64,000 bases of DNA from Bacillota bacterium (GTDB lineage Bacteria > Bacillota > UBA4882 > UBA10575). Below are positions 21 to 56,867 of the stretch, one piece after another. Every line of letters starts with the position of its first letter. The stretch's first letter is position 1. Both the position numbers and the translations under genes were made by a program. The DNA lies in the NCBI GenBank assembly GCA_012837715.1, contig DUQR01000039.1, positions 1-64,000 on the forward strand, read 5' to 3'. A model generated the notes under the pieces. It ran no database searches. It saw nothing but the letters and a program-made list of their open reading frames with translations, and was not told the origin of the DNA.

Positions 21-1010
21 TTATCCGCCGAGAGGATGCTCCATGGCGGCCACCACCAGGCGGACCGCAGCTTCTACATCGTTTAGGTCCACCATTTCCG
101 AATGGGAATGAAGGTACCGGCAAGGGATGGAGATCACTCCCGACGGAACCCCTGCCTTCGTCAACTGGATGGCGCCGGCATCGGTCCCGCCAAAGGGTAA
201 TACTTCAAACTGATAAGGGATGCCGTTCTTTTCTGCCAGTTCCGTCAGGAGTTCTTTAACGCGGGGAGGGGTGATTAAATAGGCATCTTTGACTTTGATC
301 GCCGCCCCCGCTCCCAATTTCATAGCCAGCTTACGCGCTTCCGGAGTATCTCCCGTGTCGGTTACATCAATAGCAATCGCTAAATCCGGGTCCAGGTCGA
401 AAGCGGCGGTGCGGGCTCCCCGGAGGCCCACCTCTTCCTGGACGGTAAAGGTGCAATAGAGGTCGTTTTGGGGTTTACGGACCCGTTTTAAGGCTTCGAT
501 CAAAACGGCACAACCCACCCGGTCGTCCAGGGCTTTAGCAATAACCCGGTGGCCCAAATCAACAAAGCTATGGTCGAAAGCGGCCATTGCTCCCACTCCC
601 ACCTTAGCTTTGGCTTCGGCTTCAGAAGTGACTCCCAGGTCAATAAATAACTTTTCTAAAGTTAACTCTTTGATGTCGTCGATCTTTTCGGCGCCAATCA
701 CGCCCATCGTTCCATCCTTGAAGCGAACCCGTTGCCCATAAAGACGGTGGGGATTAATCCCGCCTACGTTAGCGAAACGGAGAAATCCTTGTTTATCGAT
801 GGCGGTTACGATGATGCCAATCTCGTCCATATGGGCAGCCAATTGTAATTTGGCCTTGCCGCCATGTTTAACGGCGATTAAGTTGCCCAGGGTATCCACT
901 TTCAGTTCGTCGCAGTAGTTTTCCAGCTCCTTTTGGATAAAGGCGCGGATCGGCTCTTCCCGGCCGGAAGGGGAAGAAATAGCCGTTAAGTTACGGATTA
1001 ATTCCTTCAC
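21..1010 (-). CDS. M42 family metallo-aminopeptidase (paralogue 1)
   Basis: Likely dinuclear-metal aminopeptidase of the M42 (TET/cellulase M/YsdC) family, trimming peptides in the cytoplasm. Visible metal and catalytic motifs in order: AAHMDEIG (His ligand), ALDDRVGC (bridging Asp), VQEEVGLRGA (catalytic Glu), AIDVTDTGD (Asp ligand), and a C-terminal RYLHSHSE (His ligand). The 329 residues are near the family norm. The start is a GTG that overlaps the stop of the upstream paralogue (GTGA), so it is the third and last gene of a translationally coupled three-gene operon. The exact peptide preference cannot be read from sequence. Confidence 0.9.
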   Translation of the reverse strand: MKELIRNLTAISSPSGREEPIRAFIQKELENYCDELKVDTLGNLIAVKHGGKAKLQLAAHMDEIGIIVTAIDKQGFLRFANVGGINPHRLYGQRVRFKDGTMGVIGAEKIDDIKELTLEKLFIDLGVTSEAEAKAKVGVGAMAAFDHSFVDLGHRVIAKALDDRVGCAVLIEALKRVRKPQNDLYCTFTVQEEVGLRGARTAAFDLDPDLAIAIDVTDTGDTPEARKLAMKLGAGAAIKVKDAYLITPPRVKELLTELAEKNGIPYQFEVLPFGGTDAGAIQLTKAGVPSGVISIPCRYLHSHSEMVDLNDVEAAVRLVVAAMEHPLGG

Positions 1011-2032
1011 ACAGGTAACCCCCTTTGTTCGATATTTTTCAGGACGGCGTCGATTAAGTTAATGGTTTGCTCAAAGTCATTCAGATTTAAAACGCCGACG
1101 GGCGAATGGATGTACCGGCAAGGGATGGAGATCACCGCTGCCGGGATCCCGGCCCGAGTCTGGTTGATCGCGCCCGCTTCGGTACCACCGCTGGTTCCTT
1201 GGCGGAACTGGTAAGGAATCTTCGCCGCTTCCGCCACTGCTACCAACTGGGCGACTAGTTTTGGATGGACGATCACGGATCGGTCCATAACACTAATGGC
1301 CGGACCAAGGCCGAGACGGGTGGAAGCTTGGTGTTTTTTCAGCGGAGGGACATCTCCGGCGGAAGTGGTCTCCACCACGATCGCCAGGTCCGGATTGAGG
1401 CCAAAGGCGGCAACGGTTGCGCCCCTTAAACCTACTTCTTCTTGGACGGTGAAAGCATAATAAAGCGGTAAATTATACTCTCTTTCGATCAGATTTAACA
1501 GGACGGCGCATCCGGCCCGGTCATCCAGGGCTTTCCCTTTAAAGAGGCCGTCCCCGAAGAGGTCGGGTTTGGTATCAAAGGCGATCAGATCGCCGATGTT
1601 AACCACTTTTTCCGCATCGCTGCGGTCGGTGGCGCCGATATCGACAAAAAGGGCGGATAGCTTCATTGGTCTTTGCCGTTCTTCTCTTTCTTGTAGATGA
1701 ATCGGTTTGGCGCCGATTACCCCCGGGATTTGTTGGGGGCCGACTAAGACCCGTTTGGAGAGCAAGACCCGTTCATCGATACTGCCGACCGTTTTGATCT
1801 TTAGCAAGCCGCTGGGATCGATCCCGACGACCATCAGGCCGACTTCATCCATATGGGCCGAGAGCATGATTTTGGGTCCTTTTTTTCCTTGTCCCTGGCC
1901 GGCAAGGAGGTTACCCAGACGGTCGGTGCGGATGGTTTCCACTTTCCCCTGAATCCGGTCACGGATAAAGTGGCGGACGGTTGTTTCATTACTGGAAACC
2001 CCATTTAAGGCGGATAATTCCTTTAGTAACAT
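1007..2032 (-). CDS. M42 family metallo-aminopeptidase (paralogue 2)
   Basis: Second of three tandem M42 aminopeptidases. Motifs SAHMDEVG, ALDDRAGC, VQEEVGLRGA and RYIHSPVG are present. Where paralogue 1 has the Asp metal ligand in AIDVTD, this copy has Glu (VVETTSAGD), a substitution also found within the family. The open frame extends upstream to 2158, but the ATG at 2032 is preceded by GGAGGG six bases upstream and aligns with family N-termini, so I place the start there (341 aa). It overlaps the end of the upstream paralogue by about 10 bases. The divergent ligand suggests a different substrate preference or metal from its neighbours (inference). Confidence 0.9.
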   Translation of the reverse strand: MLLKELSALNGVSSNETTVRHFIRDRIQGKVETIRTDRLGNLLAGQGQGKKGPKIMLSAHMDEVGLMVVGIDPSGLLKIKTVGSIDERVLLSKRVLVGPQQIPGVIGAKPIHLQEREERQRPMKLSALFVDIGATDRSDAEKVVNIGDLIAFDTKPDLFGDGLFKGKALDDRAGCAVLLNLIEREYNLPLYYAFTVQEEVGLRGATVAAFGLNPDLAIVVETTSAGDVPPLKKHQASTRLGLGPAISVMDRSVIVHPKLVAQLVAVAEAAKIPYQFRQGTSGGTEAGAINQTRAGIPAAVISIPCRYIHSPVGVLNLNDFEQTINLIDAVLKNIEQRGLPV

Positions 2033-3087
2033 GCTAATCCCTCCAGAAAGCCACTGTCGATTTGGATAATGAATTCGGCGAGCAGACGGCCGCATTCTTT
2101 TAGATCGTCCAGCGCTAGAGTTTCGACCGAAGTATGCATGTAACGGAGGGGAATACAAACCAGACCACTGGCGACGCCGGCTTGCGCCACTTGAATGGCG
2201 TAGGCATCAGTGCCGCGCGGGGTAACCTCCGCTTCTACCTGATACTTAATTTTCCCGGCTTCGGCTGCTGCTTTCAGCTTTGCAAAGACGTAAGGATGAA
2301 CCTGTGGTCCGGTAACGACGACCGGACCCTGTCCCAGTTTAAAACCTTCGTAATCGGCCAAGCCAGGCATTTCTCCGTGGGTGACATCGACAGCAATGCC
2401 CAGATCCGGGTTAAGCCCATAGGAACTGACGAAGGCGCCCCGTACCCCCAATTCCTCCTGGACCGTGACGACAGCCAAGACCTCCGCTTCGTGCCGAAAG
2501 TCTTTCAGGCGGCGGAGACACTCGACCAAAGCCACCACGCCGGCCCGGTCATCCATGGCTTTCCCGGCAAAGTACTTATTTCTTAGCGGAGAACAATCCC
2601 GCTTGATCGTAATGGTGTCGCCGACTTGGACCAGACTAGCCGCCCGGTCAGCGTCCAATCCTAAATCAATAACCAGCTCTTCGATTTTGAGGGCTTTTTT
2701 CCGTTCATCCGGTTGTTGTAAATGAGGTGGTTTGGCGCCAACGACCCCGGGGAGATCTTCCCGACCGTGGACGGTTACCTCCTGTCCGAGGAGGACCCGT
2801 TGATCGATCCCGCCGATGGTAGAAAAACGTAAAAAACCCTCTTCGAGGCTGGTGACGATCAGACCAATCTCGTCCAGATGGGCGGCCAGCATGATCCGGG
2901 GGGGATGAGCGCCAAAGCCCGCCTTGCGCAGGATAATATTGCCCAACCGGTCCCGTTGGAGTCCGGTAATCCAGCTTTGGCCTTCGCCGGTGGTAAAGTA
3001 ATCCACGATGATCTGGGCGGCCCGGTCTTCCCGCCCGGAGGGACCGACGGCGTTGGTCAGGGCCATCAGTAACTCTTCAGTTTGCAC
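2023..3087 (-). CDS. M42 family metallo-aminopeptidase (paralogue 3)
   Basis: First gene of the M42 operon, 354 aa. Motifs AAHLDEIG, AMDDRAG, VQEELGVRGA, DVTHGEMPG, GTDAYAI and RYMHTSVE cover the metal ligands and catalytic Glu. The start is a GTG preceded by a strong AAAGGAGG eight bases upstream; an ATG seven codons inside has no such site. A TATAAT box at 3117-3122 on this strand lies at a suitable distance. M42 enzymes can form dodecameric tetrahedral particles, so three different subunits could mix or give different specificities (inference). Confidence 0.9.
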   Translation of the reverse strand: MQTEELLMALTNAVGPSGREDRAAQIIVDYFTTGEGQSWITGLQRDRLGNIILRKAGFGAHPPRIMLAAHLDEIGLIVTSLEEGFLRFSTIGGIDQRVLLGQEVTVHGREDLPGVVGAKPPHLQQPDERKKALKIEELVIDLGLDADRAASLVQVGDTITIKRDCSPLRNKYFAGKAMDDRAGVVALVECLRRLKDFRHEAEVLAVVTVQEELGVRGAFVSSYGLNPDLGIAVDVTHGEMPGLADYEGFKLGQGPVVVTGPQVHPYVFAKLKAAAEAGKIKYQVEAEVTPRGTDAYAIQVAQAGVASGLVCIPLRYMHTSVETLALDDLKECGRLLAEFIIQIDSGFLEGLACY

Positions 3088-4382: not shown

Positions 4383-4417
4383 TATTGGATTATAATGTGC
4401 AACGCAAAAAGCTTTAC
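4383..4417 (+). repeat. Dispersed palindromic repeat, half copy (R1)
   Basis: TTGGATTATAATGTGC then AACGCAAAAAGCTTT: the right half of the repeat family best seen intact at 17251-17371. Only the right arm is recognisable here, in the gap between the barrel gene and the convergent LysE gene. Confidence 0.55.
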
Positions 4418-6209: not shown

Positions 6210-6245
6210 AAACCTGCCGGCAACTTTGGCGGCAGGTTTCTTTTC
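6210..6245 (+). terminator. Rho-independent terminator after the FRG gene
   Basis: Stem AAACCTGCCG / CGGCAGGTTT (6210-6239) followed by CTTTTC. Confidence 0.8.
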
Positions 6246-6257
6246 GGGTGTGTCCGG

Positions 6258-6346
6258 GCTTTCTGCGTTGTCCTTGGCCTTAATAATTCCAATCCTCTAT
6301 CTTCTGCGGGTCTCTTTTTGTTGTGTCAACGCAAAGAGCAAAAACC
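6258..6346. repeat. Dispersed palindromic repeat (R2), both arms
   Basis: Left arm GGCTTTCTGCGTTGTCCTT plus ATTCCAAT; right arm TGTCAACGCAAAGAGCAAA. The arms are inverted relative to each other, as in the copy at 17251-17371. Its open frame falsely lengthens the SulP reading frame upstream. Confidence 0.65.
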
Positions 6347-6387
6347 GGGCTTGTATGGCGTCACGATTACTTGATGAGGTGATTTTT

Positions 6388-7929
6388 TTGCAGAAAATGT
6401 GGCAGCAGATCCGTGGTGACGTGACTGGTGGTGCGACCGCCGCCTTGGTTGCTTTACCCCTGAGTCTCGCCTTTGGGATTGCCAGTGGCGCGGGGGCGGT
6501 GGCCGGTCTGTACGGGGTGGTCTTCGGTGGACTGGTGGCATCGGTCTTTGGCGGTTGTGGCGTGCAAATTACCGGACCAACCGGCTCGATGATCGGAATT
6601 TTAGTGGGCATTGTCAGCCAGCATGGGGTTGGCGGTATGTTTTTGGCCGGGGTTTTGGCCGGTTTGATGCAGATTCTCTTTGGTTTGCTGCGGTTGGGCG
6701 GATTCGTTAAGTACCTGCCCCAGCCGGTAATTGCGGGTTTCACCAATGGAGTTGCGATTATCTTTTTCATGACGGCACTCAATGATGCCCGCGCCGCGCT
6801 CTCGATCACGGTGATTACCGCGGGGATGATCCTTCTTGCCTTGCGCTATTTTAAACAAGTACCCCACTCCCTATTTGGTCTGGCGGCTGGTTTGATCGCT
6901 AACGAACTGTTCGTCCATAGTCGGCACGTGGTGGGAGATCTTCTCTTTCACTTACCCAAACTAGCCCTCTCGCTCATGCCCTTTCGTGAGGTTGGCGCTT
7001 TGCTGAAGCCGGCCTTCAGCATTTGCCTGTTGGGTAGTATCTCCGCGTTGTTAGCAGCAGAGGTGGCCGACGGAATGCTTGGTGTCCAGCATAACAGCAA
7101 TCGGGAATTGATCGGTCAAGGGCTGGGGAATTTGGTTTCTTCTTTGCTTGGAGGTCTGCCCGTAACAGGGGCGGTCGCCCGTTCTGGAGTCAATGTCCAA
7201 AGCGGAGGGCGCACACGGCTCTCCGGTATCTTGCATTCTGTCTTTATCCTGTTGATGGTCTTGGTTTTTGCCCCCGTGGTCAAGCGTATTCCCTTAGCTT
7301 CGTTGGCGGCGGTCCTGATGATTGCCTCGGTTCGTACCGTTACTTGGCAAAGTTTGAAGCTGATTCCCCGGGCGCGATGGCACTATGGCGCAATTATGAC
7401 GGTGACGACCATTCTGACGGTGGTAAAGGATTTAACGATTGCGGTAACCGTCGGGGTGGTTTTGGCGGGGTTAGGAGCCCTGGTTGAACAGGCCTTTTCG
7501 CTCCGGAAGAGAGGGTTTAGCCCGTCTATAGCGGAAGCGACCGGCTTTTCTTGCCCTGCAGAGATTCAAGTGCTTGCCTTGGAAGGACCCCTGTTCTTTG
7601 TTGGGGTTGAGCAGATGCGGCGTCGCATCAGGACGTTGGCGCAAAAAAACAACTTAGTCCTGGATTTTTCGGCAGTATCCGCCATCGACGAGACAGCCGC
7701 CCTTGCCCTGCGGGATTTTGTCCACCGTTTGCAAGGGGAAGGCAAGAGAGTCTATATCGGTGGACTACAACAGGAGCCCTTGCGGATGTTGATCCGGATG
7801 GGGGTGGTTGATAGTCTAGGCCGGTGGCGCGTGTGTAAGCACCTAAGCAGTGCGGTACGGCGGGCGGCTGAGCATAAAGCACAGGAGCCCACCCTCGTAC
7901 CGCTGGGGCAACCAAGGGATGAAAATTAG
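6388..7929 (+). CDS. SulP family anion transporter with C-terminal STAS domain
   Basis: Inner-membrane transporter of the SulP/SLC26 family (sulfate, bicarbonate or dicarboxylate). The N-terminal core has GVQITGPTGSMIG, typical of SulP, and about 10-12 hydrophobic segments. The last about 100 residues form a STAS domain (LVLDFSAVSAIDETAALAL). The frame is open from 6226, but that part runs through a repeat element. A TTG at 6388 with GAGGTGA just upstream gives MQKMWQQIRGDVTGG, matching the family N-terminus (513 aa). No neighbouring sulfate or carbon genes hint at the substrate. Confidence 0.85.
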   Translation: MQKMWQQIRGDVTGGATAALVALPLSLAFGIASGAGAVAGLYGVVFGGLVASVFGGCGVQITGPTGSMIGILVGIVSQHGVGGMFLAGVLAGLMQILFGLLRLGGFVKYLPQPVIAGFTNGVAIIFFMTALNDARAALSITVITAGMILLALRYFKQVPHSLFGLAAGLIANELFVHSRHVVGDLLFHLPKLALSLMPFREVGALLKPAFSICLLGSISALLAAEVADGMLGVQHNSNRELIGQGLGNLVSSLLGGLPVTGAVARSGVNVQSGGRTRLSGILHSVFILLMVLVFAPVVKRIPLASLAAVLMIASVRTVTWQSLKLIPRARWHYGAIMTVTTILTVVKDLTIAVTVGVVLAGLGALVEQAFSLRKRGFSPSIAEATGFSCPAEIQVLALEGPLFFVGVEQMRRRIRTLAQKNNLVLDFSAVSAIDETAALALRDFVHRLQGEGKRVYIGGLQQEPLRMLIRMGVVDSLGRWRVCKHLSSAVRRAAEHKAQEPTLVPLGQPRDEN

Positions 7930-7936
7930 AGCCAGG

Positions 7937-7995
7937 GTTGGGACAAGCCCCAACGGCCATAGAGGCGGGTCGTTCGCAGCGGCGTCATTAGCCAG
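7937..7995 (+). repeat. Second dispersed repeat family, copy B
   Basis: Begins with a hairpin GTTGGG-ACAAGC-CCCAAC (7937-7954) and runs into GGTCGTTCGCAGCGGCGTCA (7968-7987). The latter part matches the copy at 19481-19515 with few mismatches. It lies between the SulP gene and the convergent nadC end. Confidence 0.55.
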
Positions 7996-12098: not shown

Positions 12099-12139
12099 AA
12101 GCCTTCTATCATTTAAGTGATAGAAGGCTTTTTTTTTTG
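12099..12139 (+). terminator. Rho-independent terminator after folB
   Basis: Stem GCCTTCTATCA / TGATAGAAGGC, 6-base loop, then a run of ten T. Confidence 0.92.
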
Positions 12140-12172
12140 CAGTATTTGCTCTAGGTTGGACGATCAATATAC

Positions 12173-12214
12173 TGTGTTGGCATGGTTAAACCCAAGGGCG
12201 ACGCAGAAAAACCC
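12173..12214 (+). repeat. Dispersed palindromic repeat, right arm (R3)
   Basis: GTGTTGGCATGGTTAA then GGGCGACGCAGAAAAACCC, matching the right arm at 17331-17367. The rest of the 12140-12340 gap holds a weak TAGAAT box at 12274-12279 that may serve the downstream glycosyltransferase gene. Confidence 0.5.
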
Positions 12215-12340
12215 ACGGGGGACCGGTCGGGAAAAGATATGTCCAGACGGGGATTAACTTTTTTAAAGCGGGGTAGAATAAGTTTACAACTTTACCAAAG
12301 CGATCATATCCGGTGCGTGGTGTGGTGAGGAGGGACCATA

Positions 12341-16200: not shown

Positions 16201-16208
16201 ATCCCTTA

Positions 16209-16277
16209 ATTGGCTTACGTTACGCGTTTCTTCCATTGTACTGGAATGACGAAAGGAAAGGAGAACGCAAAAACCCC
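16209..16277 (+). repeat. Dispersed palindromic repeat (R4)
   Basis: Left part GGCTTACGTTACGCGTTTC; right part ACTGGAATGACGAAAGG then GGAGAACGCAAAAACCCC. Arm order matches the other copies. It lies in the rapZ leader. Confidence 0.5.
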
Positions 16278-16385
16278 TTTAACATTGGGAGGAGAAAGAT
16301 TTTCCGGCAGGAAACAAATTCTCCATCGCGAACTTAATATTTTGGTAATAAGTTTCCGGTTTGGGCCTTGAATTGAGGGGAGGGT

Positions 16386-17252
16386 TTGGCGATTTCAACG
16401 ATTAGTTTTGTCATTATCACCGGGATCTCCGGCGCCGGTAAATCGGAAGCAATGAAAGCCTTTGAGGATCTGGGCTATTTCTGTGTGGATAATCTGCCCC
16501 CTGTTTTGCTCCCCAAATTCGCGGAGCTTTGTGCACAATCGGAAGGGCGGATCAATAGAATAGCACTGGTGGTTGATATTAGAGGTGGAGGCTTTTTTGA
16601 TAGTCTCTTTTCTTCCCTATCCCTGCTGGAAGAGGCCGGATATACCTATGAGATCCTCTACCTTGAAGCGGAGGATGAGGTGATTATCCGGCGTTTTAAA
16701 GAGTCCCGTCGCCGCCATCCCTTAGCTGGCGAAGGCCGTATTGCCGATGGGATCCAGGCTGAGAAATCGCGCCTGGAGAATTTGAAAGGGAAAGCTTCCA
16801 TGATCATCGATACCAGTAATTTAACCGTCCGGCAATTACGGGAGAAGATTACCGACCGTTTCAGTCAAACCAACGAAGCGCAGAAGATGCTCATTACCAT
16901 ACTCTCTTTTGGCTTTAGCCACGGGATTCCTCTGGATGCCGATCTGATTTTTGACGTCCGTTTTTTACCCAACCCCTATTATGTCGATTCTTTACGGGAA
17001 CTGGACGGCAATTACCAGGAGGTAACCGATTATGTCCTTAAATGGCCGGTAACCGCCAAATTCCTATCCAAACTCTACGAATTTGTCGCCTTTCTGATTC
17101 CCCATTACATTAACGAAGGCAAACTTCAACTGGTTATCGGGATTGGTTGTACCGGTGGGCGCCATCGTTCGGTGACCGTTGCCAATCAACTACAGGAATT
17201 TCTCAAAGCCAAGGGATATAAAGCCTTGGTTGAGCATAGAGATGTTAGTTAA
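16386..17252 (+). CDS. rapZ: RapZ/YvcJ nucleotide-binding protein (RNase adapter family)
   Basis: P-loop protein of 288 aa. Walker A is ITGISGAGKSEAM; other family motifs are YFCVDNLPP, VVDIRGGGFF, RRFKESRRRHPL and the C-terminal GCTGGRHRSV. In Gram-negatives it steers sRNA decay for glucosamine-6-phosphate synthesis; in Firmicutes (YvcJ) it affects competence. The TTG at 16386 follows AGGGGAGGG very closely; an ATT two codons later is better spaced but a rare start, so the start is uncertain by two residues. Neighbour yvcK matches the widespread rapZ-yvcK pair, though whiA, the usual third gene, is absent. Confidence 0.92.
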   Translation: MAISTISFVIITGISGAGKSEAMKAFEDLGYFCVDNLPPVLLPKFAELCAQSEGRINRIALVVDIRGGGFFDSLFSSLSLLEEAGYTYEILYLEAEDEVIIRRFKESRRRHPLAGEGRIADGIQAEKSRLENLKGKASMIIDTSNLTVRQLREKITDRFSQTNEAQKMLITILSFGFSHGIPLDADLIFDVRFLPNPYYVDSLRELDGNYQEVTDYVLKWPVTAKFLSKLYEFVAFLIPHYINEGKLQLVIGIGCTGGRHRSVTVANQLQEFLKAKGYKALVEHRDVS

Positions 17253-17371
17253 GCTTTTTGCGTTAAAACCAATAAAAAAAGGATTCCAATACAAGATCGT
17301 GTTTAACTTAAATCAGGCGATCAACCTTTTGTGTTGGAATGGTTAACGGAAAGGACAACGCAAAATGTCCT
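17251..17371. repeat. Dispersed palindromic repeat, most complete copy (R5)
   Basis: Left arm AAGCTTTTTGCGTT followed by GATTCCAATAC (17251-17292); right arm GTGTTGGAATGG then GGACAACGCAAAATG (17331-17367). The arms are inverted repeats with a 38-base middle containing ATCAGGCGATC. Nearly the whole rapZ-yvcK gap is this element, and it abuts the yvcK ribosome site. Confidence 0.75.
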
Positions 17372-17388
17372 AGTTAGGGGGAGAAAAC

Positions 17389-19092
17389 GTGCTCCGACCG
17401 TACCGCAATGATTACCGGCCCACTAAGCTGATCTTCGGCTTGGGTTTGGTCTTTGGGGGAATGCTGGTTCTTTTCTCCAGGATCAACCTGAACCTCTGGT
17501 TTGGCGGTTGCTTGATCTTTGGCGGCTTATTGGCGCTGATCCGGTACGGCCATTCGTGGACCGGTAAACATGTTCACTCCGCTTTTGTTAAGGAACGCAG
17601 GTATTTTCGATTATTAGAACGGGAAGCCCGGATTGTCGTGATTGGTGGCGGAACCGGGTTAGGGACGATCTTGCGGGGTTTAAAGAAAATTACCCATAAC
17701 TTAACGGCCATTGTTACGGTGGCTGATGATGGGGGAAGCTCGGGGCGGTTACGGAAAGAATTTGGGATTCTCCCTCCCGGTGACATCAGAAATTGTCTTA
17801 TTGCCATGGCCGATCTGGAACCGTTGATGGAACAGTTGATGCAGTATAGGTTTAATGGTGGAAGTGGTTTGGCCGGCCATAATTTCGGCAATCTGTTTTT
17901 GACGGCGATGACTGGAATTACGGGCGATTTCCAAAAGGCGATCGAGGCGTCGGTTAAAGTCCTTGCGGTTAAAGGTCGGATTTTTGCCGCCACTTTAGAT
18001 AATGTCAGCCTCCGGGCGGAGTTACAAGACGGTGAGATCGTCAAAGGCGAATCGACGATCGGGCAAAGTAAGGCGCCGATTAAACGGGTTTACTTGGAAC
18101 CGGCGGCGGCCAAGGCTGTTCCCGAAAGTTTGCAAGCGATTGCCGAGGCCGATCTGATTATTCTCGGTCCGGGGAGTCTGTTTACCAGTGTGATTCCGCC
18201 CTTACTCGTGAATGAGATCTTAGCGGCGGTGAAGAATTCTGCGGCCACGAAGATTTATATCTGCAATGTAATGACACAGCGCGGGGAGACGGACGGGTTT
18301 ACCGCCGCCGATCACCTCCGTGCCCTTCTTGAGCACACGGATGGTAAATTAGTCGATTACATGATCATCAACAATCAAGAAGTTCCGCCGGAGGCCCGGG
18401 CGGCTTATGCCGAGGAAGGAGCCGAACCGGTTTTGGCCGACCGGGAGAAGGTCAGCGGTTTAGGGGTCCGGCCGATTGCTGCCCCCCTTTTGAACACCAA
18501 CGGTCTAGTCCGACATGATGCCGACCTACTGGCCAAACTATTGATGGAGTTAATGCCGGCCTTCTTGCGTCGGGGAAAATACTGGTCCCGCTACTGGCAG
18601 CGGTTCCTTCGCCTCCTGGGCGGAGGGGTGATTGTCAGCTTAGGCATTACCGAGGAGCGCGGGCTCCGCCACCGGTGGCCCTGGCCCCCGCTGGAGCGGG
18701 AAAAAGAACTAAAGTTTGATTTTATTACGAAGAATCTCAACCGTTTTCAAGCAACGGCTTGTGAAGTATATACCAATCAGGAGGAAGCTCCGCCGGAACT
18801 TCAACCCTATAAACTTGATTACCAAAAAAACCTGGTGGTTGGGGTTTACTTGGGAGAACGCCCCTCCGGCGGATTTGCCTTGACCCCCGTTGCGGTCCGT
18901 CTAAAAAACAACCGGATTGTGATCACCTACCGGGAAGAAGAACCATGGCAAGCGGGGGCAGTCCAAAGATTAACCTATCCGGCGGCCTTTTTTATCCTCG
19001 ACCGGACCCAACTCCCAACCGGCCAATTGTCCCTCCACTTAAGAAGAGAGGAAGAAAAAAGACCGGTTTGGGTAGAACAAATTTTTCTGTAG
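17389..19092 (+). CDS. yvcK: YvcK/CofD-like gluconeogenesis factor with C-terminal PrcB_C-like domain
   Basis: Residues about 10-55 form two membrane segments. The YvcK/CofD-like core (about 80-390) has VVIGGGTGLGTILRGLK, VADDGGSSGRLR, PPGDIRNCL, GHNFGNLF and ILGPGSLFTSVIPPLL. YvcK binds UDP-sugars and affects carbon use and cell-wall growth. After the core come about 170 further residues; about 475-545 contain GERPSGGFAL and VQRLTYPAAFF, the pattern of the PrcB C-terminal domain seen in secreted or surface proteins. I know of no standard YvcK carrying this. Start is GTG at 17389 after AGGGGGAG. Confidence 0.9.
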   Translation: MLRPYRNDYRPTKLIFGLGLVFGGMLVLFSRINLNLWFGGCLIFGGLLALIRYGHSWTGKHVHSAFVKERRYFRLLEREARIVVIGGGTGLGTILRGLKKITHNLTAIVTVADDGGSSGRLRKEFGILPPGDIRNCLIAMADLEPLMEQLMQYRFNGGSGLAGHNFGNLFLTAMTGITGDFQKAIEASVKVLAVKGRIFAATLDNVSLRAELQDGEIVKGESTIGQSKAPIKRVYLEPAAAKAVPESLQAIAEADLIILGPGSLFTSVIPPLLVNEILAAVKNSAATKIYICNVMTQRGETDGFTAADHLRALLEHTDGKLVDYMIINNQEVPPEARAAYAEEGAEPVLADREKVSGLGVRPIAAPLLNTNGLVRHDADLLAKLLMELMPAFLRRGKYWSRYWQRFLRLLGGGVIVSLGITEERGLRHRWPWPPLEREKELKFDFITKNLNRFQATACEVYTNQEEAPPELQPYKLDYQKNLVVGVYLGERPSGGFALTPVAVRLKNNRIVITYREEEPWQAGAVQRLTYPAAFFILDRTQLPTGQLSLHLRREEEKRPVWVEQIFL

Positions 19093-19127: not shown

Positions 19128-19148
19128 ACAGACACAATCTAATAAAAG

Positions 19149-19288
19149 AATCCTTCAGGGCAGGGTGCGGCCGCGGGGCCAATTCCCGACCGGTGGTAAG
19201 GGGTAACCCAAGTCCACGAGCTTAGGCCATCTAAGCTGATCTGGTGAAAGTCCAGAACCGACGGTATAGTCCGGATGAAAGAAGGAAT
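19149..19288 (+). ncRNA. FMN riboswitch (RFN element)
   Basis: The conserved core is easily read: CAGGGCAGGGTG, then AATTCCCGACCGG, GTAACCCAAGTCC, GTGAAAGTCCAGAACCGACGG and TATAGTCCGGATGAAAGAAGG, in RFN order. P1 pairs CCTTC (19151-19155) with GAAGG (19280-19286 region). FMN binding is known to lower expression of riboflavin synthesis or uptake genes. The nine bases CCTTCAGGG at the 5' side are exactly complementary to CCCTGAAGG, the first arm of the terminator downstream. This gives a simple switch between antiterminator and terminator. Confidence 0.95.
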
Positions 19289-19305
19289 GGCATTTTATGC
19301 TTTTT

Positions 19306-19344: not shown

Positions 19345-19579
19345 AGTCGCGCATGTGGCTACCATCCGCCTGAGGGCAGTGCTGAAAATTCAAAGCTGAT
19401 CTAATCTCCGCCTTGGCCGGATGGTATTTCCTTCTTCGGCGAGTTACTTGGCGTCAAGTGAGTCGACAAGCAGCGAAGAGTACAGAAGCTGGTCGTTCGC
19501 AGCGCCGTCACTAACTGGTACGCTAAATTTTGAGCCGGGAGAATCGACAGCTAGTTTTTTCTAAGGATAAAGAGGTGAA
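19345..19579 (+). repeat. Second dispersed repeat family, copy A, within a long leader
   Basis: No gene is seen between the riboswitch terminator and the ATPase. The stretch holds an inverted repeat TACCATCCG / CGGATGGTA (about 19360 and 19418), a 25-base segment at 19403-19427 matching the reverse complement of 52393-52417, and TACAGAAGCTGGTCGTTCGC (19481-19500), which continues AGCGCCGTCA and matches copies at 7957-7993 and 58197-58236. Confidence 0.55.
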
Positions 19580-21133: not shown

Positions 21134-21137
21134 AGTT

Positions 21138-21156
21138 GGACAACGCAAGAAGCTTC
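21138..21156 (+). repeat. Dispersed palindromic repeat, right tip (R6)
   Basis: GGACAACGCAAGAAGCTTC, matching the right end of the repeat family, between the permease and the binding-protein gene. Short, so possibly a remnant. Confidence 0.4.
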
Positions 21157-23428: not shown

Positions 23429-23563
23429 TTGGTTAAAATATTAATATCGATCACAACCGGATGGGTTTTAGCGCATTATTATATTGAGCGGCTGATTCAA
23501 GCCAAACACGGCATGTTGCGTTGGCATCCTTTTAATTGTCAAACGCAAAAAGCTTTGGGATAA
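23429..23563 (+). CDS. Possible 44-aa membrane peptide, unrecognised
   Basis: A TTG start at 23429 directly after AAAGAGGAAAC opens a 44-codon frame whose first half is hydrophobic (ILISITTGWVLAHYYI) and whose second half is basic. Its TAA falls inside the ribosome site of the next gene. Against it: the 3' third runs through a copy of the dispersed repeat. The remaining 23217-23428 holds no gene that I can see. Confidence 0.25.
   Translation: MVKILISITTGWVLAHYYIERLIQAKHGMLRWHPFNCQTQKALG
23515..23557 (+). repeat. Dispersed palindromic repeat (R7)
   Basis: GTTGCGTTGGCATCC and then TTGTCAAACGCAAAAAGCTTT, ending nine bases before the AAGGAG of the following gene. Confidence 0.5.
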
Positions 23564-27456: not shown

Positions 27457-27618
27457 GTCGGCGCTTCCTTAGAAGGTTTTTTGCTTGTCCGGAAAGCCCT
27501 TTTCGCGGATACACCACAAAAAGCTTTAAAGCTGGTTAAAAATTCCCCGAGAAAAAGGGTTTTCTCCGAGAAGGAGGAATAAAAGGAGTACATATTAAGA
27601 AAGCAGGAGGTGCTGGCG

Positions 27619-30440: not shown

Positions 30441-30468
30441 ATCCGCTTTTGTATTCTCCATTACGGCA

Positions 30469-30520
30469 AGCATTCCAATACTGAACTTAAGCTAAACACC
30501 TTATATTGTCTTGGAATCTA
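30469..30520. repeat. Dispersed palindromic repeat, inner arms (R8)
   Basis: GCATTCCAATACTG (30470-30483) and TTGTCTTGGAATC (30506-30518) are the inner inverted arms of the family; the outer ACGCAAAAAG tips are not clear here. Confidence 0.4.
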
Positions 30521-30550
30521 TTTAATCGATTGGATGCCAAAACTTAAATG

Positions 30551-41396: not shown

Positions 41397-41465
41397 AAGC
41401 TTTTTCCGTGGAACAAAGAACAATACATTGCCTTTATCTTGAAGCAGGCGATCGCCAGATAAAGC
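41397..41465. repeat. Dispersed palindromic repeat, left half (R10)
   Basis: GAAGCTTTTTCCGTGG, ACAATAC and AGCAGGCGATCGCC; the last matches ATCAGGCGATCAAC in the middle of the copy at 17251. The right arm is poorly preserved. Confidence 0.45.
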
Positions 41466-51892: not shown

Positions 51893-51964
51893 AAAGCTTT
51901 TTGCGGGGTAAGCGCTTAGGATAGGATTGGAATGAGCAACGGAAGGGACAACGCAAAAAGCCCA
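51893..51964. repeat. Dispersed palindromic repeat, both arms (R11)
   Basis: Left tip AAAGCTTTTTGCGGGGTAAG; right GATTGGAATGAGCAACGG then GGACAACGCAAAAAGCCC. The right tip is followed at once by AAGGAGGG, the ribosome site of the next gene. Confidence 0.65.
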
Positions 51965-51977
51965 AGGAGGGATCACC

Positions 51978-56696: not shown

Positions 56697-56737
56697 ATCT
56701 AAGTTTCTCCGTTGCAGCCAGCTAGGCTGTTTCTATA

Positions 56738-56783
56738 TATTGAATTGGAATTGTAAAAGTAAAGGACAATTGCAATAAGCCCA
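56738..56783 (+). repeat. Dispersed palindromic repeat, right arm (R12)
   Basis: GAATTGGAATTGTAAAAG then AAAGGACAATTGCAATAAGCCC, a diverged right arm upstream of the DUF554 gene. Confidence 0.45.
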
Positions 56784-56867
56784 TCTCTTTCGGCTTTTCA
56801 TTACCACTAATTCCTGTTATAATGACAGGAAGACAAAGGGGTATTGATATTAGACGGAGGCGGGATG

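Follow-up and report, generated by a model that had tools for sequence, protein, structure and literature searches.

Does the long palindromic sequence between a rapZ-like gene (16386-17252) and a yvcK-like gene (start 17389) represent mobile DNA, or does it serve the downstream gene as an RNA leader? The locus lies in a 64,000-nucleotide stretch of DNA (the window) from a 2.44-Mb draft MAG of a Hydrogenispora-like Bacillota (G000). An earlier note on the window had listed about eleven whole or partial copies of this repeat between genes, suggesting either non-autonomous mobile elements or hairpin leaders. We built a sequence-only model, R1, from 25 copies in G000, the consensus of which is 120 bp long (AAGCTTTTTGCGTTGTAACCAATAAAAAGGATTCCAATACAATATATAGTGTTTAACTTAAATNAGGCNATCAATATATTGTATTGGAATTGTTAAAGCAAAGNACAACGCAAAAAGCCC), and searched genomes with it, scoring about 150 candidates per genome, so that copy counts are lower bounds. 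All of the genomes compared are draft MAGs, the relatives gathered via the rapZ-like gene being Bacillota MAGs, one of them a Hydrogenispora sp., and the gene calls came from a simple script. R1 recovered nine of the eleven listed places as whole or partial copies, together with one weak extra match, and the repeat observation was confirmed. The remaining two places, 4396-4415 and 21137-21156, were unmatched by R1 and resemble only the last ~16-20 tip bases; these may be tip remnants. The only full-length copy in the window is that between the rapZ-like and yvcK-like genes, while the other sites are partial, deleted or decayed (Table 1).

Table 1. Copies of the repeat in the window and parts of the full-length copy.
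Feature	Position	Strand	Remarks
Full-length element, 120-bp class	17251..17370	+	R1 match 17251-17369, E 4e-28
Left 5-bp target duplication, TAGTT	17246..17250	.	Single copy in empty sites of relatives
Right 5-bp target duplication, TAGTT	17371..17375	.	Single copy in empty sites of relatives
Left tip, a terminal inverted repeat with the consensus AAGCTTTTTGCGTTGT	17251..17266	+	Conservation is highest in the tips
Right tip, a terminal inverted repeat with the consensus ACAACGCAAAAAGCCC	17355..17370	+	
Hairpin region of the inner core, here degenerate	17283..17341	+	Core common to several tip families
Partial copy, left tip toward the 23575 gene	23478..23555	-	R1 E 3e-11
Partial copy (right half)	12139..12216	+	R1 match 12139-12210, E 1e-10
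Decayed copy, internal deletion	30447..30534	-	R1 E 9e-9
Partial copy (right half)	16207..16280	+	R1 match 16207-16276, E 7e-7
Partial copy (right half)	56723..56784	+	R1 match 56723-56781, E 1e-6
Internally deleted copy, both tips kept	6256..6339	-	R1 matches 6257-6300 and 6307-6339; E 1e-6 and 0.12 at its ends
Internally deleted copy, right tip adjoins GGAGG of the 51978 gene	51893..51966	+	R1 match 51922-51962
Decayed partial copy (left half)	41397..41457	+	R1 match 41398-41457, E 0.0016
Possible remnant, additional to the earlier list	27480..27526	-	Weak R1 match, E 0.004
Possible tip-sized remnant, TGTGCAACGCAAAAAGCTTT	4396..4415	.	Direct-repeat family D10
Possible tip-sized remnant, TGGACAACGCAAGAAGCTTC	21137..21156	.	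Direct-repeat family D10

The window also holds a second, unrelated intergenic repeat of ~110 bp (19455-19566 and 7942-7990; GACAAGC..GGTCGTTCGCAGCG..GAGAATCGACAG), with 7 matches in G000, 18 in G001 and none in G003, and a relative of it occupies the rapZ-yvcK gap of L034. A sulfate-permease-type gene (6226-7929; Sulfate_transp and STAS) follows the internally deleted copy at 6256-6339. In relatives, this gene is missing at that place and the flanking alignments lie ~200 bp apart. In addition, positions 21-3087 on the minus strand hold three paralogous genes in tandem, each 329-383 codons long (direct repeats D2, D3 and D5).

We then investigated the abundance and spread of the repeat. The scan of G000, as the earlier note had proposed, gave at least 153 R1 matches with E<=0.1, almost all of them with values much lower than 1e-4, which excludes chance; this figure, like our other early counts for G000, includes a few opposite-strand echoes of the palindrome, and the genome carries at least about 145 copies. 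A blast search of G000 with window positions 17246-17400 returned 41 matches, mostly full length and 71-81% identical, and the 25 copies behind the 120-bp consensus came from among them. Many R1 copies, again as lower bounds, were detected in G001 of the same genus and in G011 and G012 of other genera of the family, and none in G003 and G004, both of the same genus as G000. Two related genomes contain the 14-base tip, with at most one mismatch allowed, 111 and 210 times, and the reversed pattern once and not at all, respectively. The mean identity to each genome's own consensus was 80% in G000, 89% in G001, 94% in G011 and 92% in G012. The copies in G011 and G012 are near-identical and therefore recent, and their frequent location at contig ends, or around assembly gaps, is as expected for near-identical repeats. 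The GC content of the copies is about 35% (33-37%), as compared with 51% for the window, and 4 of 113 full copies lie inside an ORF, as called by the simple script. Searches of phage, plasmid and viral collections yielded no copy; tip or core matches in viral contigs lacked the second half and were attributed to chance. Apparent longer variants of 180-300 bp turned out to be ordinary copies in which assembly gaps (N) separate the tips, and core-like matches in G007 represented a single locus beside parB on two contig ends, not an element.

Comparison of orthologous gaps, also suggested in the earlier note, provided direct evidence for insertion. In five relatives (L031, L032, L033, L035 and L039), the rapZ-yvcK gap is empty at the exact 17251 site and reads ...AGTTAGG(G/A)GGAGAG..., with a single TAGTT, whereas in the window the same gap sequence is split by the element, with TAGTT at each side. 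With AA as its first bases, the element turned the TAG stop codon of the rapZ-like gene into TAA. Furthermore, ~100 bp at the site of the 23478 copy are absent in relatives, and the 12139 copy was not seen in their orthologous gaps. Among 86 full copies from four genomes, deduplicated by removal of the echoes, 39 carried exact flanking duplications of 4-7 bp, as compared with ~3.4 in shuffles. The duplications are AT-rich and mainly 5 bp long (21 of the 39, with 1.3 expected), and young copies with exact duplications include those flanked by ATTATC, GTTACC, AGTATCT, AACACTA and GGACCT; the apparent target is YYT-TANNA-ARR. The precise insertion into an empty site with target duplication, the excess of 4-7-bp duplications, the copy number, the patchy distribution, the young copies in relatives and the nearly independent decay of the arms, in a sequence with no coding capacity, indicated that the repeat is very probably a MITE, that is, gene-free mobile DNA inserted into gaps between genes, in agreement with the first suggestion of the earlier note.

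Other explanations were weighed against this reading. REPINs, associated with the REP-associated tyrosine transposase RAYT, are not known to leave a target duplication on moving, and would be disfavoured by the 4-7-bp duplications. A Tn3-derived miniature element (TIME) would account for the mainly 5-bp, AT-rich duplications, as TIMEs are characterized by these together with ~40-bp Tn3 repeats and the Tn3 transposase (PMC4133298); however, the window family lacks long Tn3-like repeats at its tips, some of its duplications measure 4, 6 or 7 bp, and the Tn3 transposase (PF01526) was found in none of 10 genomes, copy-rich ones included, which makes this origin extremely unlikely. The possibility of structured RNA leaders, selected ahead of genes as cis-regulatory hairpins that affect translation or mRNA stability, was also considered. 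The element has outer terminal inverted repeats of 14-16 bp and further inner ones of 15-18 bp. The consensus strand folds as a very stable long hairpin (outer stem 14 pairs, inner stem 18 pairs; -43 kcal/mol, z -8.3), and the polar placement described below would also suit a leader. However, RNAalifold detected no common structure in the copies, and arm pairing in the G000 copies amounted to 85.1% of cells versus 83.5% with shuffled partners, a difference of ~1.5 percentage points. Compensatory changes in the arms were slightly more numerous than in shuffles, but the arms of the G000 copies decay nearly independently and their pairing is largely lost. Across the tip families described below, covariation is seen in the outer seven pairs of the inner stem (39 cells changed on both sides versus 11 after shuffling), as if each family had been restarted as a good palindrome. 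Moreover, identity to the consensus was 83.7% near starts and 84.3% elsewhere, the rapZ-yvcK gap exists without the element in five relatives, young copies occur at widely varying distances from genes, and no Rfam family matches the element, the sole match in the whole window at the gathering score being an FMN riboswitch (19147-19290, 104.9 bits). A hairpin leader as a maintained function, the second suggestion of the earlier note, was accordingly left without support, and we consider it very improbable.

The placement of the copies is nevertheless polar. In the same deduplicated sample, and by simple motif rules, a Shine-Dalgarno-like motif lies 3-22 nt beyond the right tip in 25 copies and beyond the left tip in 6 (p = 0.0009), and the motif plus a start codon occurs at 19 right versus 3 left ends; the right tips previously noticed to adjoin ribosome sites thus reflect a genuine bias. 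The right-end motif is commoner in the old copies of G000 (16/36) than in the young ones of G011 and G012 (5/33, p = 0.01), which could be expected of a leader and is compatible with retention by selection. The latter reading is weakened because near-start copies are no better conserved, predicted Shine-Dalgarno accessibility is independent of orientation, and promoter-like sites are bidirectional. The same accessibility result counts against the leader and leaves masking of the Shine-Dalgarno motif unsupported as the cause of the polarity, and an orientation-specific target was rejected, since the flank preference is symmetric in outline and the purine excess over background is equal on both sides. 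An outward promoter, by which insertions in one orientation are kept for driving the downstream gene in a Correia-like manner, would add to the MITE reading and is compatible with it. The G001 and G012 consensus sequences contain TTGACT-16-TATATT toward the right tip, scoring better than 98.7-99.3% of shuffles, and the polar placement itself is in line with such a promoter. However, a similar site, TTGATT-17-TATATT, faces the opposite direction, and the promoter fails to explain the polarity because the sites read both ways. In addition, G000 has only a degenerate -35 part, and neither G011 nor the sister families conserve it, so that conservation is confined to the TATATT inside the palindrome; start-proximal copies are again no better conserved. 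As a conserved function the promoter was only partly supported, and retention of insertions for this purpose appears unlikely.

Returning to the MITE, we analyzed the conservation of its parts. Within the copies, identity to the consensus is highest in the tips, at ~92%. R1 also matched, by the middle only, elements in G020, G021 and G022, which belong to another family of the same class. Their ends differ from those in the window: (G/A)AGCG..TTTCATAATTACC in F3 (G020 and G022), and GAATTGCAAATTACC or GAATTTCAAATTACC in F4 (G021), while F2, a single element in G012, ends in GGAAATTGCATAATTACC. Judged by eye, the four families may have distantly related tips (TTGC-T--T-ACC), and the window tip and that of F2 have ~9 of 17 positions in common. 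The core, with the consensus CAATATATAGTG-N16-CTATCAATATATTG within a longer inverted repeat, keeps these two motifs around a 16-nt spacer of variable sequence in all tip families. It is 42 nt long in 80 of 87 elements, lies 35-37 nt from the tip in most, and has two palindromic sites ~31 bp apart. Of 29 genomes of the class, 9 contain it according to a core model, R2, which also detected it in 5 of 399 genomes drawn from the phylum, four of them in the same class. Because the core keeps its length and its spacing from the tips although the tips vary, it probably serves the element itself as a module for protein binding or DNA structure, and the ~31 bp between the palindromic sites would correspond to nearly three helical turns. 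The wider proposal, that the 42-nt core stayed constant in length and spacing through exchanges of the tips, functions independently of them by binding a host protein or by giving the MITE an advantage over its parent IS, and makes the placement by ribosome-binding sites polar, is offered tentatively, as a doubtful but conceivable one.

Several unusual elements bear other arrangements of core and tips. A 54-bp mini-version in G012 (C118, L228:6094-6147) has both tips and an apparent flanking duplication, CTATT, and lacks the core; if it inserted in that form, the core would be dispensable for movement. Other G012 copies (C69, L230:1250-1508 and 2075-2250; C23, L234:5060-5230) have ~100 bp extra in the core loop, which partly resembles the second repeat (GAATCGACAAGCATCGAA) and represents nested insertions or longer-loop variants. 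In G021 (C54, L176:1350-1600), two F4-type elements lie in tandem, with AGATAA-like targets between and beside them.

Finally, we searched for the enzyme that moves the element. DDE_Tnp_1 had no match in G000, G001 or G011; the IS1380, ISKra4 and IS1634 searches yielded nothing with window-type tips, and in all none of the five transposase families searched (PF01609, PF01526, NF033572, PF13701 and NF033559) gave an element with the window tip. A solo tip in G012 was rejected as the end of an autonomous element, as the adjacent gene reads as IMP dehydrogenase (guaB), and other solo tips looked like remnants. A weak hit of the IS1634 search led to a 1.43-kb IS in G020 (L267), with an open frame of 426 codons; the encoded protein matches DUF772 and DDE_Tnp_1, and IS1182 below the cut-off. 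Its tips, GAGCGAATTTCATAATT, i.e. GAGCGAATTTCATA(A/T)TT, equal the F3 MITE tips of G020, GAGCGTGTTTCATAATT, at 15 of 17 positions counted by eye, and tips of this type, such as TGAACCAATTTCATAATT, also occur in related IS carried by Bacillota plasmids. The L267 IS lacks the core, and its target duplication is indistinct, 4 bp at best. Because a related genome thus has an IS with tips like those of the sister families F3 and F4, which resemble the tips of IS1182-like IS, the MITE may be moved in trans by a DDE transposase, perhaps of the IS1182-like group (DUF772 plus DDE_Tnp_1). This is the best lead on the mover, a lead for F3 and F4 and an analogy only for the window's family. The variation of the duplication length, 4-7 bp, is larger than usual for a single transposase and counts against this explanation.

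As far as the searched literature and collections show, this class of uncultured Bacillota contains a MITE superfamily that has not been described before and would be new, with a mechanism drawn partly by analogy. We found no publication on transposable elements in Hydrogenispora, in a search that covered few subscription journals, and no description of a fixed-length core common to families with different tips in the MITE literature examined. A constant core with changing tips raises the question of what a gene-free transposon needs beyond its ends, and the young and old copies in related genomes form a natural series on the retention or loss of insertions beside ribosome-binding sites. Long hairpins ahead of genes in such genomes also need not be regulatory RNAs.

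Bacterial MITEs are shorter than 500 bp, gene-free, AT-rich and intergenic, with terminal inverted repeats and target duplications (PMC10969869, PMC2229807, PMC4133298). The window element shares these properties, being small (120 bp), without a transposase gene, multicopy, AT-rich and intergenic, with terminal inverted repeats, target duplication and an empty site, so that all of the defining features (PMC10969869, PMC4133298) except a proven parent IS were found; its high copy number and foldable transcript are further likenesses. TA ends or a TA duplication characterize most of the bacterial MITEs described (PMC2229807, PMC4133298), unlike the window family, which duplicates 4-7 bp, mostly 5, and ends in AAGC and GCCC. 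ERIC of enterobacteria, a 127-bp element with 7-bp terminal repeats and TA ends, whose orientation matters for its effect on mRNA (PMC2229807), is of nearly equal length and also palindromic, intergenic and present in the order of 100 copies, but an informal look revealed no sequence relation, and the window family lacks its TA ends. Correia/NEMIS of Neisseria is likewise a mobile palindrome, often near gene starts and with promoter-like sequences (PMC10969869), although its size, tips and TA target are different, and promoter activity and RNase III processing have been shown for Correia only. RUP of pneumococcus, at 107 bp with a TA target and IS630-Spn1 as its proposed mover (PMC2229807), differs in that the window family has 4-7-bp duplications, with an IS1182-like partner suspected for the sister families only, and resembles it in size, copy number and Bacillota host and, through the sister families, in tips like those of an IS.
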